From Neoscytalidium dimidiatum (Eukaryota > Ascomycota > Dothideomycetes > Botryosphaeriales > Botryosphaeriaceae), in the NCBI GenBank assembly GCA_037367355.1, contig CM074701.1, positions 1,116,001 to 1,180,000 of the forward strand: DNA of 64,000 bases. Reading direction: 5' to 3'. This document shows positions 19,898-63,488 of the stretch, one piece after another. The first letter of the stretch is position 1, and every line of letters begins with the position of its first letter. A model generated the notes under the pieces. That model saw only the letters and a list, made by a program, of their open reading frames with translations. It did no database searches and was not told the origin of the DNA. A program made the translations under genes and the position numbers.

Positions 19898-21271
19898 TCA
19901 AGTTCTGGAGTAGCGCCTCCTCGCCTTCGAGAAGCTATCAACAAGCCCATCCCAAGCCCAGTTACCAACGACAGGCGTTCCAGCCCCGTTCGACACGGCG
20001 AAAATGACATCAGTATCTCCGGCCGTAGTGTAGAACTGGTTGACGTCCGTTCCGGTGCCGTTTCCGAGCAGGCAGTTACCTCCATCGACGTAATACGCGG
20101 ACGTCGTGCAGTTGGCTGTGATTTGACACTGTGCAGAAAGTCATTAGCTCAAGTGATGGCAAGCGAGGTGTGTGGGTACGAACGGTGATGCAGCATTCGA
20201 CGGCGTCTTCAGCTATCACTTCTGCCAGAAGATCCTGCACCCCGAAGATGATAGGGTTCCCGTTCACTCGGGTCACTGTGTTGTTCAAAGCGCACGCAGC
20301 GAACGCGGTCTCGGCAGGCGCGTTGATGGTGATGGTGTTCGTGAGGGTGGATGATACGGTAGACTACGATTGTCGGTCAGAGTTGTGGTACAACATCAAG
20401 ATAAGAAGTACGCGCTTACCACAACCGCAGTGGTAGACGTGATAGTGGTAGTCGTAGAAGAGGTAATAGTCGTCCTGCCACTGATGGGACGCGATCCGAT
20501 TGAAGAGACGCTGGTCGTCGTCGAGAATGCCGTAGCAGTCACTGTTGATGGTTGCGCAGTTACCGTCGAGGTGGTTGAGATAGTTTTCCAGAACATGCGA
20601 ATGGCCTCGATCCTCACTCGTCTATTGCAGAAGACGCCGGTAGGAGCCTGCGGGGGAAATAGCGCGAGGCCTTCTCCCTCTTCTCCTGGGCCAAACCTGC
20701 ATCTCGTAGAATTGGTGTTGTTTACCGGGATAAGAGTTTCGAAGTCTTGCAGGCCATAGAGAGGATAGTTGAAGTTATGCCAGCGCTTGCGCCGGCTTGG
20801 AATCCCACCTTGAGCAGCAACGTCGGCTGCCACTGGCGTGAAACCGGGCTGCGTAGGAATAGTTGTAGTAGCTGTGAGCGTCGTAGTAAAATTCTGCGCA
20901 ACCACACTGGTGAAAGTCGAGATGGATGAAACTATCGAAGATACGGTGAAAGTTGTTGTAGTGGTTACGATGTCTGTTTGTAGGGGCGGTTCCGAAAAAC
21001 TGACGGTAACCGTGCGTGTGATGATCGAAGTTGAGGTGGACGTGACCGGAGCTGGAGTCACGGTAACGAGTGGAGTGGAAGTGCCTCTAGCGAACCCTTG
21101 GCCTTGGCTGGTGGAGATGTTGTATGATGTGGGAACACTAGCAAGGCTGGCTGTCCGACCATAGCTCGTAAAGCAATTCTCTGAAGTGTAAGTCGATGTC
21201 AAAATCTGGGCTGCTCCGAGCCCTGCGGCGAAAAGCAGGGCGCCAAATTCGAGAGCCACCATCTTCGCCAA
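19898..21271 (-). CDS. Secreted Ser/Thr-rich (mucin-like) protein of unknown function
   Basis: Model on the minus strand: exons 21271-20420, 20363-20184, 20128-19898; about 420 aa. A signal peptide is visible (LEFGALLFAAGLGAAQ). Residues about 65-160 and 230-285 are dense in Ser/Thr/Val, as in O-mannosylated wall or secreted proteins. The more ordered parts hold cysteines: RCRFGPGEEGEGLAL with FCNRRVRIEAI, and a C-terminal block with ECCIT, ANCTTSAYYVDGGNC. The second intron uses a weak GTTCGT donor. The last 30 residues are uncertain because a competing frame runs on past the chosen stop. I do not recognise a named family; a cell-surface or matrix role is inferred. Confidence 0.72.
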
Positions 21272-21331: not shown

Positions 21332-23519
21332 TCTCTGACATGGGTGAACATCCGTTACGTTCTTTCCGGTACGTCTGGTACTGGACGGCGTTGCCTGCCC
21401 TCATGTGGAACCCACCTGATTGGTAGTCTTGTTGCACATACGCCCTCGGCGCTGGATATTCTGCCCGATTCGGCATCGGTGAAGGTCCTCTCGGCAAAAC
21501 ATCAACAGCCCAGGAATGCTGCTCAAAAATTTTCTTTCCAGGCATGCGGCACCCACCGCGCATACGAAGGGTACGAACAATCTCGCTGTATGGCTCAGCC
21601 ACGAAGTAGATGGTAACTGATGTGGAAACATCCGCTGCCCAATCTGGGCTTGTATCTGGAACTGATTGTTTGAACTTGTGTCACTTTACACACGACGCAA
21701 GGGCAGCAAACGCCTCTTTCGTATGTCGCCCTAGGGGAATGTGAGTTGAGAGTCAGATTTCGCCTACGACCGAATGCCATGCCTTAATCCCAAACATTAC
21801 ACTTCCATGGCTGCAGCCCTAGAGTGACTTTTTGAACGACGATTCTCTTGACAGGAAGTAGCGCACATCTCATTCTTGCATGAAACACTTGCCAGTACTC
21901 ACGAGTGTTCTCGATTCAGAGATATATTTTACTCGGAGAGAAAAATAGACTCCGTTTAGCAGCGTTAATTTTATCTGAAATTGAATTAGCCCTTTAGATA
22001 GAGCGCATCTCAAAGCGATGGTTGACTTCAAAAGTACACCAACGCAGCCGTAGTGATGACTAAAAAGAGCATGTGATGGTGTGAATCGTTTCATGCTACA
22101 GATGTGTCTCTTTTCTTTTCTTTTTTTTTTTCTTTGGTATGAGATCATCCGTATGTGCCTGACTTACCAGTAGAGCCCGTCCGAAGTTCAAGAATGTTTC
22201 ATCCTCATGACAACCGCATAAATCGATCGTTCCTCTCTCTCACCCACTTGATCGGGTAGCTGTATGCGCGACTTTTTGCGAGACTTCATTATGGAATTTG
22301 GTAACAAAATGGAAGGCCTACGTTGGGGCCGCATATTTGCCAGAGCGAGGCAGGTGAGCTGTGGCTCTCACAATGCTTTTTAAGTCGAGTACGTCACTCA
22401 CGCTGGCCAGTGGCCCAAACGTGGAGGCGCAGAACCTTACCCAAGCGCACAGACCGCAAGCAACCCGTAATCATTTCCAAAACAGAGCCGAGACTACGAT
22501 AGGGTCAATGTGCCGGGGCTTTCAGCCTTGCGCATATTTCGCGTTACGGCGGGCCGCTTAGTCGTTGCCGCTTTGAGACATGCGCTCCACATCCCGAGGC
22601 TTCATTGAAGTCTTCGTGTACAACGGCCCTTGAGAGAGTGAGAGGCAGTTGCGGACGCGAAGCGCCATTTAGCAGAAATCTAACGACTACATAGTGTTAG
22701 GGGAAAAACTAAAATCGGTCCCGAGCATTGGCAGGGGCTCCAGGTTCTGGGCAGCTGTAGCTGAGTCCAATAACGGCAAAACCAGTGTTCAGAGGTGCTT
22801 TTTCTCAATACCGCGGAAAGCCCTGTACGATAAACGGTCTGCGGCGTACGGTAGCACTTCTAGGCGCGCGGAATTGGACGCGTCACTGTGGCGCAGTTGC
22901 CGTTGATACTGTTGCTCAAGGCGTCGGTGGCACGCCCATACGCTTCATCGGCAGTAATACGAGAGGGGTGTTTGTCTTGGGAAGTTTCACGTTTCTCGTC
23001 GCGTTCGGGAAGTCTTTCGTTCCCAAGATGCGGCAGTGGCGGATCAGCCGGTAAAAGGTTAGATGTAGGCTTAGTCGCCAGGGGAAAAGACGCTTGTGAT
23101 GGCCAAGACTCGGTTCACAGGCGGTTCACAGGCACAGGCACTCAGCTGTCTCGGCTCGTCTGTTCGGGCCGGGAGAGCTGGACATCCGGAGAGGTATAAC
23201 TACAACAAGCTTGCAGTCCAGCACCTTCGAAAGGGAACGCCTTGAAAACGCTCTTTACAATCATTTTCTTTTCTCACTTAAAAGCTCTGGAGCCCACTTG
23301 TCGCTCTCTTGAATCAAAGCCCGAATACTTTCAGCGTCGACCAAATCCATTCGCTCAGCCTAAACGCATCGGCCTTGGGATAGTACAACTGAGACCTTAC
23401 CTTGCTTTTTACATCTTTTTGGTATGTCCGAGAGCTGAACCCTTGTTATCATGCGAATCATTATTAATATAGAGTAGAAATCACTCGCAATGGACACGCC
23501 AAGTACTGTACATTCCTGA
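21332..23519. other. Gene-poor region
   Basis: About 2.2 kb in which I find no gene. Open frames are short, mutually overlapping and featureless. No terminal repeats or transposase motifs are visible. Confidence 0.4.
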
Positions 23520-23636
23520 TGATCATCTTAATCTTCCTCATTCTGGTAATCACATTATTTGGCGGAGTGGCCATTGCTAAAGGCTGCCGCGTCGTGCGCA
23601 AAGAAGAGGTCGGAAGTGCCAAAATGCCTGTATGAT
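23520..23636 (+). CDS. Predicted single-span membrane microprotein A (38 aa)
   Basis: A 38-codon frame: a hydrophobic span (MIILIFLILVITLFGGVAIA) followed by KGCRVVRKEE and a short polar tail. It is related without gaps to microprotein B, 655 nt downstream, at about 15 of 27 positions, including the KGC and RKE of the juxtamembrane segment. The juxtamembrane Cys could be acylated. The ATG has a poor context, and a ten-codon upstream frame (23491-23520) ends in a TGA that overlaps this ATG as TGATG; this would be either a reinitiation arrangement or the trace of a one-base shift near the start. No known family is recognised. Conservation between the two copies is the main evidence that it is a gene. 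Confidence 0.5.
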
Positions 23637-23995
23637 GTGGCAGACTTTGAAGGAAGAAGACACAAAGATTCAGCGTTCGATAAATTGGACGGACGGCGGG
23701 AGGCGATCGATCGCGATACCCATGCGTATAAACATGGATATATACCCTGCCCTTGAAGGGGCGCTGCAACTTTCTCGGTTCATAGTTGGAGGAGCTCGAG
23801 ATTACAGATGAATAACATTTGAAATTGCCGTTTGGTACGTCAGCCTGTGTCAGTCGTGATTGGGCTGATCTCGGGGTCAGAATGCGCGGATAGGTACGGA
23901 ATCCCAGTCCGAAATTTTGGACGACCCGTGCACGACGAACCACGTGCACGTTATCCCAGTTTTCTCGGGTAGAGGCGGAGCTCTTGGACAAGTCC

Positions 23996-24016
23996 TATAT
24001 ATATATATATATATAT
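23996..24016. repeat. (TA)n microsatellite, 21 nt
   Basis: Uninterrupted TA dinucleotides between the two microprotein frames. Confidence 0.9.
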
Positions 24017-24174
24017 TCTTATCCTTCGGACTCTGGCATACAGCTATCCGTCAAAGCAAATTAAAGGTCATAATAAAACCTGTGCTGTTGAAGTTCATGA
24101 ATTAAACATTCGTACGTTGCCTGACTCTCATTCACTTACCTGGAGAGTGCTGATGAAACCAGAAAACGTTTACC

Positions 24175-24297
24175 ATGGCCACTATTTGGGAGGTTCTTTT
24201 AGCCTTTCTAGTGCTGTCCATCGTCTTGGGCGCCGGTGTTTTAATCTGGAAAGGCTGCCAGATTGGGCGTAAAGAAAAGTATGCCAGTCAAGTGTAA
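24175..24297 (+). CDS. Predicted single-span membrane microprotein B (40 aa)
   Basis: A 40-codon frame with a good start context (ACCATGG). After MATIWEVLLA comes a hydrophobic span ending VLIW, then KGCQIGRKEKYASQV. Positive residues after the span predict an outside/lumen N-terminus and a cytosolic C-terminus. It is the paralogue of microprotein A on the same strand. A Lys-Gly-Cys directly at the membrane edge is shared by both. Nothing in the sequence gives a function; small subunits or regulators of larger membrane proteins look like this, but so do unrelated tail anchors. A spliced longer form cannot be excluded. Confidence 0.55.
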   Translation: MATIWEVLLAFLVLSIVLGAGVLIWKGCQIGRKEKYASQV

Positions 24298-25465: not shown

Positions 25466-26754
25466 CTATCGAGGGCCAGTAAAACGTATAACAACGCCCC
25501 CATTCTCAAGATCATCTCGTATCCTATCCTCTGCATCCTTAATCTCTTCGGTGACATAGTCCCTCATTTCATCCTTGATGTTCATAATGTGTTCGTCAAT
25601 GCGAACATCGACAATGTCACTCGTTTCGTCCGCAACCTCTTCGATTTGCTCGTGAAGATCTTCACGGAGCTCCTCGATGCGCTTCTCGAGGAGACGCTCG
25701 AGCTCCTGTAACTTGTTCGAATGCTGATTTTGTAGGCGTTGTAACTCGGACCGCAACTGCTGCGCCATTTCCTCTTTGATCTGTTCCCGCATTGACTTCA
25801 TCCTTTCTTGCCACAGCTCATCTGACTTGCGAAGCTCCTCCTGCATCTGTTGGCGCATTTCTTCCTTGAGATGGACCCGTATGTCTTGTAGTTCCTGCTT
25901 CCATTGAATCTTTACTGCAGGGCTTGGTAATGGGCTTCGGATTCTGGAACGTTTCCTCGGCGGCTCGACTGATTCTACAAGTAGCTAAGCATGACTTCAA
26001 GAGTAATATTGATAAGTAACGTACCAGTGTCTCGGTGTTGTTTGGCTTGGGATACTGTCGGTGGGCCGACTAGTTCATCATAAGACGGTGGACTCTCCGG
26101 GGGAGCGTCGACATCAAAGGGGAACACGAGCTCTGATCCCGAGAGCTCTTTTGCTCCTGCGCCTCCGTACATGGTCTCCAGACGCAGCTCAGTAGGATCT
26201 GCTCTCAGCTTGCCACCGCAGGCCATGTCGCAAAGACTACTTATTGACAGCATCGTCTGGCCTTTGTCCGCAATATATACAGTGAACTGCGTAGTAAGAG
26301 CAAGGGAGCGTAGCAATCGAAGTAAGTTCACAGTCGCAGTGGACCTTGGCACGAGCGGAACATCGGCGGGGATGACGGCAGTAGCAGGTTTAGATAGAGC
26401 GAAGCGAAGTTGTAGAATAGCATTGTTTGGCAATAACGGGAAGGCGGTGCGCACCGCACCGGGAGCCTCTTCCAAAGTATGATGTTGCAGTGTGGAGATG
26501 CGCTCGGGATGAATATACAGGAAAATGTTGGTTTTCCGGGCCTGGCCTTTCAGCGCGATCGGCACTCGGAGCTTGAAGAATGCGGCACTGGTGTGCTCAT
26601 CAACGCGCATGCTGAAAGCGACATGACAAGAAGGCTCAGGATAGCGATGGCCCAAATAGACGGGCCGCGCTTGCTCGGGACAGATCCACTCAACCATTGT
26701 AGCGACATATGGAGCGGATGCCGGGGTGGCCGGTGTGACCGAAGAGGACGCCAT
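25466..26754 (-). CDS. Orphan protein with C-terminal coiled coil
   Basis: Model on the minus strand: exons 26754-26025 and 25974-25466, 412 aa, one 50-nt intron. The first 230 residues contain a beta-rich domain of a fungal type I do not recognise (FKLRVPIALKGQARKTNIFLYIHPERI), followed by a PPSYDEL segment that resembles a PY motif (PPxY), which can bind WW-domain ubiquitin ligases such as Rsp5. After a basic patch (PPRKRSRIRSP, a likely nuclear signal) comes an unbroken coiled coil of about 120 residues rich in Glu, Gln, Arg and Leu. A scaffold or nuclear role is possible. Lineage-restricted proteins with this layout are common in ascomycetes, often without known function. Confidence 0.78.
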
Positions 26755-62090: not shown

Positions 62091-63488
62091 GTGGCATTAC
62101 CGACAGCACAGCCCTCGACCCAGAAGCGTAAACGAGATACGTCGGATCAACCTGAACGCAAACGCCAGCGATCGCCTTCGGCCACAGCTGGAGCTGCCCA
62201 CGAGGAAAAAACGAGCGACAGCACCGAGTGCAGTAACCCTATCGATTTCTGGCGGACCCACCAACGCTGGCCACGAAGCTTCTTTGAGCCTGGTAGTAAC
62301 ATGAGTCAACAACATGCTGGGAGAAGCTCTTCGGGTACCCCTCGTCGGAAGGCATCAGCGCCATCCGTCACATCCAGCGAGGCCTCGGGGGATCGGAAGA
62401 GCACACCCTATCACAAGCCAACGTTCACCCTCCTGCTGGAGACCACGGGCAGCTTCTTGGGTAAATACGTGAGGAGCGATGGACTGGAAAGGGGTCCCTT
62501 GAAGACCAGTAGCGATCTCTGTCGGGACCTACTAGAGATGGAGCAGGACCTTCCCCAAGACTCATTGTTCTCCGACGACTTTTTTGAGGACACTTGCGAA
62601 ATGATACAGGAGCGGAATGAGGCAAAGGTAATTCAAGACATTGCTCGGCTGATAGTTCCCTCTGCCCAGACTCTTTCTGTCCGTGGCTCGAGACATCTCC
62701 GAATCCTCGTTGAGTCTGTCAACGAGGCCTGGGCCAAAGCTATCCCCTCGCACCGCGATTTCCCTCATCCGAAACCGGACTATTCTGTCGGCTTCAAATG
62801 GTCCTCTTTCACGAAAGAGCAGTTTGAGAAGCTAAAAATCCTGGTCGGCGATATTGTGGATAGATCCGAGTCGCGATTCGCAGCCACATACTTTATGTAC
62901 TTCCCCTTCCTTACCTGTGAGGTCAAGTGTGGCGCGGCTGCCCTCGACATTGCCGACCGGCAAAATGCACACAGCGCGACGATTGCAGTACGGGCCGTGG
63001 TGGAGCTATTCAGGCTGGTCAAGCGTGAGAAGGAGCTTCATCGTAAGATACTGGCTTTCTCGGTCTCCCACGACCACAACACTGTCAGAATTTATGGCCA
63101 CTATCCTGTCATCGACGGCAAGGAGACGACGTATTATCGTCACAGTATCCGAAATTTCAGCTTCACGGAACAAGACGGGAAGGACAAGTGGACAGCTTAT
63201 AGGTTTACGAAGAACGTCTACGACAATTGGATGCCTGACCACTTCAAGTGGATTTGCTCCGCCATAGATGAGATCCCGCCCGACATCAACTTCGATGTTT
63301 CTCAAGAGTCGGAATTGCACTTCTCTACCGGCCTTGCGCCAGAGCAGGAAAGCCTTCACCGCCCGCGATCGGAAAGCTCAATGTCAGTCGTTCGCCCCGA
63401 TGACGGATCAAGTGTTGCGGAGACTGGGCACACGACACCCGACACGTCTGTTTCTCAGACATGCAAGAAACCAAGACGAAGGCGGTAA
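62091..63488 (+). CDS. Nuclease-like fungal family protein (probably DUF7924)
   Basis: Open from 62091 (no ATG there) with a first in-frame ATG at 62301; up to 465 aa. The N-terminus is basic (QKRKRDTSD, ERKRQRSPS), a likely nuclear signal. The core starts near YHKPTFTLLLE and reaches FPFLTCEVKCGAAALDIADRQNAHSATIAVRAVVELFRLV; EVKCG with conserved acidic residues before it is a PD-(D/E)XK nuclease-like arrangement. AFSVSHDHNTVRIYGHYPVIDG and DKWTAYRFTKNVYDNWMPDHFKWICSAID complete the family block. I believe this is the family catalogued as DUF7924, often found as lineage-expanded fungal genes. A missing first exon near 61823 is likely. Function is not established; nucleic-acid cleavage is inference. 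Confidence 0.75.
   Translation: MALPTAQPSTQKRKRDTSDQPERKRQRSPSATAGAAHEEKTSDSTECSNPIDFWRTHQRWPRSFFEPGSNMSQQHAGRSSSGTPRRKASAPSVTSSEASGDRKSTPYHKPTFTLLLETTGSFLGKYVRSDGLERGPLKTSSDLCRDLLEMEQDLPQDSLFSDDFFEDTCEMIQERNEAKVIQDIARLIVPSAQTLSVRGSRHLRILVESVNEAWAKAIPSHRDFPHPKPDYSVGFKWSSFTKEQFEKLKILVGDIVDRSESRFAATYFMYFPFLTCEVKCGAAALDIADRQNAHSATIAVRAVVELFRLVKREKELHRKILAFSVSHDHNTVRIYGHYPVIDGKETTYYRHSIRNFSFTEQDGKDKWTAYRFTKNVYDNWMPDHFKWICSAIDEIPPDINFDVSQESELHFSTGLAPEQESLHRPRSESSMSVVRPDDGSSVAETGHTTPDTSVSQTCKKPRRRR

Follow-up and report, generated by a model that had tools for sequence, protein, structure and literature searches.

Two short frames lying side by side on one strand of the 64,000-nt stretch of Neoscytalidium dimidiatum DNA analysed here (the window, G000:C7:1116001-1180000), together with a third frame on another contig, very probably belong to a real microprotein family that is old and has at least three genes. 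The three copies are designated A, B and C. The status of this family as undescribed rests on one genome. The whole explanation that we propose is that of an old family of single-span membrane proteins of ~40 residues, which assist or regulate a larger membrane protein as its subunits, whose genes have leader introns, and in which A is a derived copy. We judge this complete picture to be somewhat on the probable side.

Two adjacent frames are best read as paralogues

Frame A occupies positions 23519..23635 on the plus strand of the window and consists of 38 codons for 38 residues (MIILIFLILVITLFGGVAIAKGCRVVRKEEVGSAKMPV), with one hydrophobic span and a basic tail after it. Frame B lies on the same strand at 24175..24297, consists of 40 codons for 40 residues (MATIWEVLLAFLVLSIVLGAGVLIWKGCQIGRKEKYASQV) and has its ATG in the context ACCATGG. 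Both frames are present on one strand as the original prediction had it, with a gap of 539 nt between them. That prediction had also claimed an ungapped core in which about 15 of 27 positions match, and counting on the alignment gave identity in 15 of 27 columns (B residues 8-34). When A is read from position 23504, 17 of 40 columns are identical with B. The A-B comparison has a BLOSUM62 score of 75 in register, and a score of at most 14 in the other registers within +/-15.

In agreement with the further remark that the flanking DNA does not look duplicated, the 200-nt flanks were no more alike than shuffled sequence. A search of the genome with a 901-bp stretch covering A and B returned the stretch itself and a TA run, and nothing else. 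This TA run (23996-24015), which was its own inverted match, is found ~95 nt 5' of the predicted leader intron of B. A recent segmental duplication or a repeat element was ruled out, the DNA being single-copy and the flanks unlike. Likewise, A and B are not two exons of one gene, because B and C are each complete 40-codon frames from ATG to stop and C is located on another contig. Genome searches, shuffles, the codon-position pattern, the third 40-residue paralogue and an intron-like motif all support paralogous single-span microproteins as the best reading of A and B at the level of sequence.

Genome searches and shuffles argue against chance similarity

Six-frame searches of the whole genome (43.76 Mb, 40 contigs) were run at E<=10. 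Scoring was restricted to loose first-look candidates (3, 2, 3 and 3 for the four queries), which means that the family may be larger. Query B recovered A at E 0.0013 and C at E 1.46, and query C recovered A at E 0.0175 and B at E 1.6. As a 38-residue query, A recovered B (E 0.0024) and not C, while A read from 23504 recovered both B (E 0.0010) and C (E 0.011). No further genome match at E<=10 was obtained with these four queries. The three copies are thus connected by reciprocal genome-wide matches, with B and C matching each other only at E 1.5-1.6, which is a weak link when taken alone.

Hydrophobic spans have a common composition, and the similarity of these frames might accordingly have arisen by chance, in which case none of the three would be a gene. 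A second point in favour of this reading is that two bacterial proteins match the family over 23 residues, even though they were judged to be non-relatives. These matches (L011:2935-5220 and L012:887-2263) fall in the first hydrophobic stretch of frames of 761 and 458 residues, respectively, which we take to be nitric-oxide-reductase-like; it is the B helix that they resemble, and they were themselves taken as chance. They account for the 2 of 56 in a search of a collection of genome contigs, both judged unrelated; on viral contigs, 75 stretches fit a pattern and none of them was a relative.

Several observations speak against a chance likeness. In segment-preserving shuffles at a fixed register, none of 100000 reached the observed score for any of the three pairs, and when 13 registers were allowed the counts per 20000 were 0 for A-B, 1 for A-C and 0 for B-C. 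Shuffled genome queries (B twice and A once, shuffled within span and tail) gave 0 candidates in 3 of 3 cases, although an empty first look shows nothing by itself. When the 342 ATG-started frames of 30-60 residues in 84 kb of DNA (the window and 20 kb around the third copy) are ranked by hydrophobicity, A, B and C take the first three places. The 26 hydrophobic ones among these frames form 325 pairs, of which those within A/B/C have scores of 78, 64 and 59; the best score of any other pair is 33. Together with the third full-length copy, the codon-position bias and the leader motif, these data leave the chance reading with hardly any credibility.

Codon positions suggest that the protein sequence was kept

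The numbers of identical nucleotides at codon positions 1, 2 and 3 (per 40 codons) were 21, 23 and 15 for A-B, 19, 27 and 14 for A-C, and 16, 25 and 13 for B-C; part of the second-position excess would be expected from any two hydrophobic frames. Different codons are used in 8 of the 17 same-residue columns of A-B, in 12 of 17 for A-C and in 10 of 12 for B-C. A comparison of the dN/dS type between the copies, which had been proposed as a check on the original prediction, gave pN below pS in all three pairs (pN 0.43, 0.42 and 0.46 versus pS 0.77, 0.77 and 0.87). The bootstrap 95% ranges of pS-pN were all above 0. Since pS is saturated, the ratio of pN to pS is to be read qualitatively only. In this qualitative sense, the codon positions and the relation pN<pS suggest that the duplications are old and that the protein sequence has been kept. 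Three diverged paralogues in one genome thereby provide an internal test for coding constraint without a second genome. B and C are likely to be translated.

A third copy reveals the family-wide residues

Paralogue C (MSTFLQIAALFVIFVVLMGSGIAIAKFYSSHRNEEYGSKV; 40 residues) is encoded outside the window, on the minus strand of another contig (G000:C11:2137555-2137674, L003). It has its ATG and its stop in the same columns as B, and A, B and C align without gaps over 40 columns. Eight of these columns are common to all three copies; A shares 9 more with B alone and 9 more with C alone, 4 are shared only between B and C, and in 10 no two copies agree. The invariant residues are T3, F11, G21, I24, K26, R32, E34 and S38 (numbered as in B; A is read from 23504). 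The Lys-Gly-Cys that had been noted at the membrane edge is indeed common to A and B, but it is absent from C, which has Lys-Phe-Tyr at this place. As Lys-Gly-Cys is not among the invariant columns, the membrane-edge cysteine is no family feature.

A candidate leader intron precedes each copy

Inspection of the DNA upstream of the three copies revealed intron-like motifs, recognised by their sequence. The motif before A (23422..23477, plus strand, 56 nt; GTATGT ... TTAAT ... TAG) ends 12 nt 5' of an ATG at 23490, and its excision would remove both ATGs in the preceding 120 nt. The motif before B (24112..24162, plus strand, 51 nt; GTACGT ... CTGAT ... CAG) likewise ends 12 nt 5' of the ATG. Its excision would remove an out-of-frame ATG at 24153, and another ATG, 78 nt 5' of the start, lies outside it. 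For C, the motif is 51 nt long (GTACGT, branch TTGAC, TAG) and ends 17 nt 5' of the ATG; excision would remove the sole ATG in the preceding 120 nt, which belongs to a two-codon upstream frame.

On both strands of the 84 kb, such a motif was found 5-30 nt upstream of 14 of 2723 ATGs, including those of A (23490), B and C, and a looser version of the motif gave a background of 30 of 2723. Because the motif was defined after B and C had been inspected, this rate serves as a guide and not as a test. The motif is present in 3 of 3 genes, in A only before ATG 23490. The intron-like sequence of A is unlike those of B and C, and the B-C comparison was borderline (P 0.06). A leader intron of 51-56 nt directly 5' of the start is predicted from sequence as a probable part of each gene.

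A is probably a derived copy with a displaced start

The upstream frame of A (MDTPSTVHS; 23490..23519, plus strand; 9 codons and TGA) had been predicted to have ten codons and a stop that overlaps the ATG of A. This is what we found, except that the frame starts at 23490 and not at 23491. The homology of A extends 5' of ATG 23519 in in-frame codons, from 23507 in comparison with C and from 23510 in comparison with B, and the residues T-F-L of C match in-frame codons 5' of this ATG. The upstream frame starts with M-D-T, while B starts with M-A-T and C with M-S-T. Given this M-x-T beginning and the leader motif at a like distance, ATG 23490 was probably the original start of A and no longer shares a reading frame with the body. 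This would make A, probably, a derived copy. Any protein that A may give rise to would have to begin at ATG 23519, perhaps via reinitiation at the overlapping stop and start; alternatively, splicing may skip 23490, or the gene may have been lost recently.

A serious competitor, to which we give somewhat less than an even chance, holds that B and C are working genes and that A is a recently broken copy making no protein. The start that has the motif (23490) is in another frame than the body, ATG 23519 is in a weak context (C at -3), and the frame of A continues beyond the stop column common to B and C, all of which fit a broken gene. What does not fit is that no other copy has a body as well conserved as that of A, with 9 of the 40 columns shared only with B and 9 only with C, versus 4 shared only by B and C. 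Since this body is conserved and its frame open, any break would be recent. Moreover, as far as the DNA alone can indicate, splicing to a 3' site at 23503 would likewise drop the upstream ATG and so make 23519 the first ATG; the branch-like motif nearest to this candidate site is ~35 nt away.

Genomic surroundings of the three copies

The A/B pair is flanked by opposite-strand frames at 20396-21271 and 25466-25858, and mechanical ORFs of at least 100 codons are also present between these two. By eye, the start of the frame at 20396-21271 resembles that of a secreted, threonine-rich protein, and no Pfam family was found for this frame. The frame at 25466-25858 gave coiled-coil-like Pfam rows, all of them below cut-off. 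A TTG-started frame of 175 codons (23464-23991, minus strand), which the original prediction did not mention, runs antisense over A; it had no Pfam match at E<=1 and is probably a chance frame. Rfam and tRNA scans of the window found nothing.

Elsewhere in the window there are frames for a cytochrome P450, an acyltransferase-3 and a DUF7924 protein. The latter (62091-63488) has at least 2655 relatives at E<=0.001 among 7998 scored candidates. The best relatives among the matches listed are from Macrophomina phaseolina and Diaporthe helianthi (69% identity), followed by named ascomycetes, and the named rows among the 120 matches listed are all fungal.

Two frames neighbour C. One is fungal transcription-factor-like (Fungal_trans_2, E 1e-06); the other is small, threonine-rich and secreted-looking, and no Pfam family was found for it. 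The threonine-rich neighbours of A/B and of C are alike only in short stretches (at best 8 of 13 residues, E 0.036 in a single comparison), and were therefore not counted as a shared neighbourhood; this too speaks against a recent segmental duplication. A Ty3/gypsy-type retrotransposon (L014:4299-9044) begins ~4.2 kb from C. Its first frame contains gag and zinc-knuckle domains, while the later frames resemble, by eye only, pieces of reverse transcriptase, integrase and chromodomain.

Build of the proteins and their proposed role

Each protein starts with a short N-terminus that is uncharged or acidic, continues with a hydrophobic helix of ~19 residues and a membrane-edge lysine, and ends in a short C-terminal tail that is charged and for the most part basic. 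B has no positive residue before the span, and K26, R32, K33 and K35 after it. An AlphaFold2 model of B, made from the two-sequence alignment of A and B, consists of one helix (residues 4-39) with a mean pLDDT of 79.5, the last ten residues having 61. According to the positive-inside rule, positive residues lie on the cytosolic side of a membrane span, so that the basic tail, as read from the sequence, most likely faces the cytosol.

Small single-span proteins of such build commonly bind a larger membrane protein, and a role as accessory or regulatory subunit of such a protein is therefore what we hold to be most likely. The sequences themselves establish the homology, the frames, the amino-acid constraint and the presence of the motif upstream of the starts; that the genes are spliced and translated, how the proteins lie in the membrane, and what they bind and do, we infer. 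In the proposed arrangement, the helix, with F11, G21 and I24, would pack against the larger membrane protein, and the tail, with K26, R32, E34 and S38, would contact the cytosolic side of this partner.

Two other roles were weighed. A short hydrophobic segment at the N-terminus with a short tail behind it would also suit a signal peptide, in which case a tail of ~15 residues would be released as a secreted peptide. The charges are, however, the reverse of those expected, with a neutral or acidic N-terminus and the positive residues after the span, and we consider this role very improbable. Less improbable, though still unlikely, is that the proteins are structural subunits, and not regulators, of a mitochondrial or ER complex of the respiratory, translocase or glycosyltransferase type. 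Many mitochondrial and ER complexes contain single-span subunits of 35-70 residues, and a span of ~19 residues tends to be short for a plasma-membrane helix. Also, the sole and insignificant PDB row for the A/B profile was the small subunit of succinate dehydrogenase (6lum_E, E 3.6). Yet a search of 177635 distinct PDB sequences with the three-sequence profile found nothing at E<=10, and three diverged paralogues would be unusual for a subunit at fixed stoichiometry.

Relation to known families and comparable systems

No Pfam or NCBIfam family reached its curated cut-off for A, B or C. The Pfam rows stn_TNFRSF12A, Hexapep, OAD_gamma and DUF4405 and the NCBIfam rows DLW-39, PilV, SecE and YtzI were all below their cut-offs; DUF4405 was the best Pfam match of C (E 0.0034, 18.3 bits versus a cut-off of 26.7). 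No homologue was found in a protein database that includes many fungal proteins, in a search that needs shared 5-residue words and is weak for a 40-residue query. A keyword search of the open-access literature returned no paper on the A/B/C family by title or abstract start.

The closest likeness by description is to the yeast PMP1/PMP2 proteolipids, regulators of the plasma-membrane proton pump, which are also 40-residue, single-span proteins with a basic C-terminal tail and paralogous copies. A, B and C might accordingly be their filamentous-fungal counterpart, but we regard this as improbable. None of the three gave a row for PF08114 at E<=10 (cut-off 22.3 bits), while the yeast PMP1 sequence, used as positive control, scored 100.5 bits against this family. 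A genome-wide PF08114 search gave nothing over the cut-off, and no match at A, B or C. A profile comparison with PMP1 aligned one column, with a probability of 0.6%. None of these three approaches placed A, B or C in PF08114. Judged by eye, PMP1 lacks the K26, R32-x-E34 and S38 pattern in ungapped register, and it had no significant sequence match in the PDB. Sub-cut-off PF08114 (PMP1_2) matches of 18.9 and 15 bits occur at C2:1131396-1131482 (L015) and C11:1565561-1565605 (L016), where they overlap longer frames. In Saccharomyces cerevisiae, the specific activity of the pump falls by 50% when PMP1 and PMP2 are both lost, and a Candida albicans PMP1 null mutant was unchanged in growth, filamentation and biofilm formation, as stated in PMC6521590. 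Even true PMP1 members may accordingly lack a visible phenotype.

Gene callers have difficulty with proteins of ~40 residues whose genes carry a leader intron, and ordinary homology searches need longer queries, so that fungal families of this kind are probably under-counted. A survey of small ORFs of up to 80 residues in 31 fungal genomes, which used clustering at 70% identity (PMC7394265), deals with a similar kind of object and reasons in a similar way. With identities of 12-17 of 40 residues, A, B and C would not cluster together at this threshold. Should the family prove widespread among filamentous fungi, it would offer a small and tractable set of possible membrane regulators.

Animals have single-span microproteins of the regulin type, among them phospholamban, sarcolipin and DWORF, which regulate a P-type ATPase. 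The most specific version of our proposal is that A, B and C form an undescribed, intron-bearing family of 40-residue proteins that regulates a fungal transporter or complex, comparable to PMP1 and phospholamban yet unrelated to them, with A being start-switched and dependent on reinitiation; put in this form, we hold the proposal to be possible but rather doubtful. The regulins resemble A, B and C in being single-span microproteins and differ from them in being animal proteins, the likeness being one of description only.
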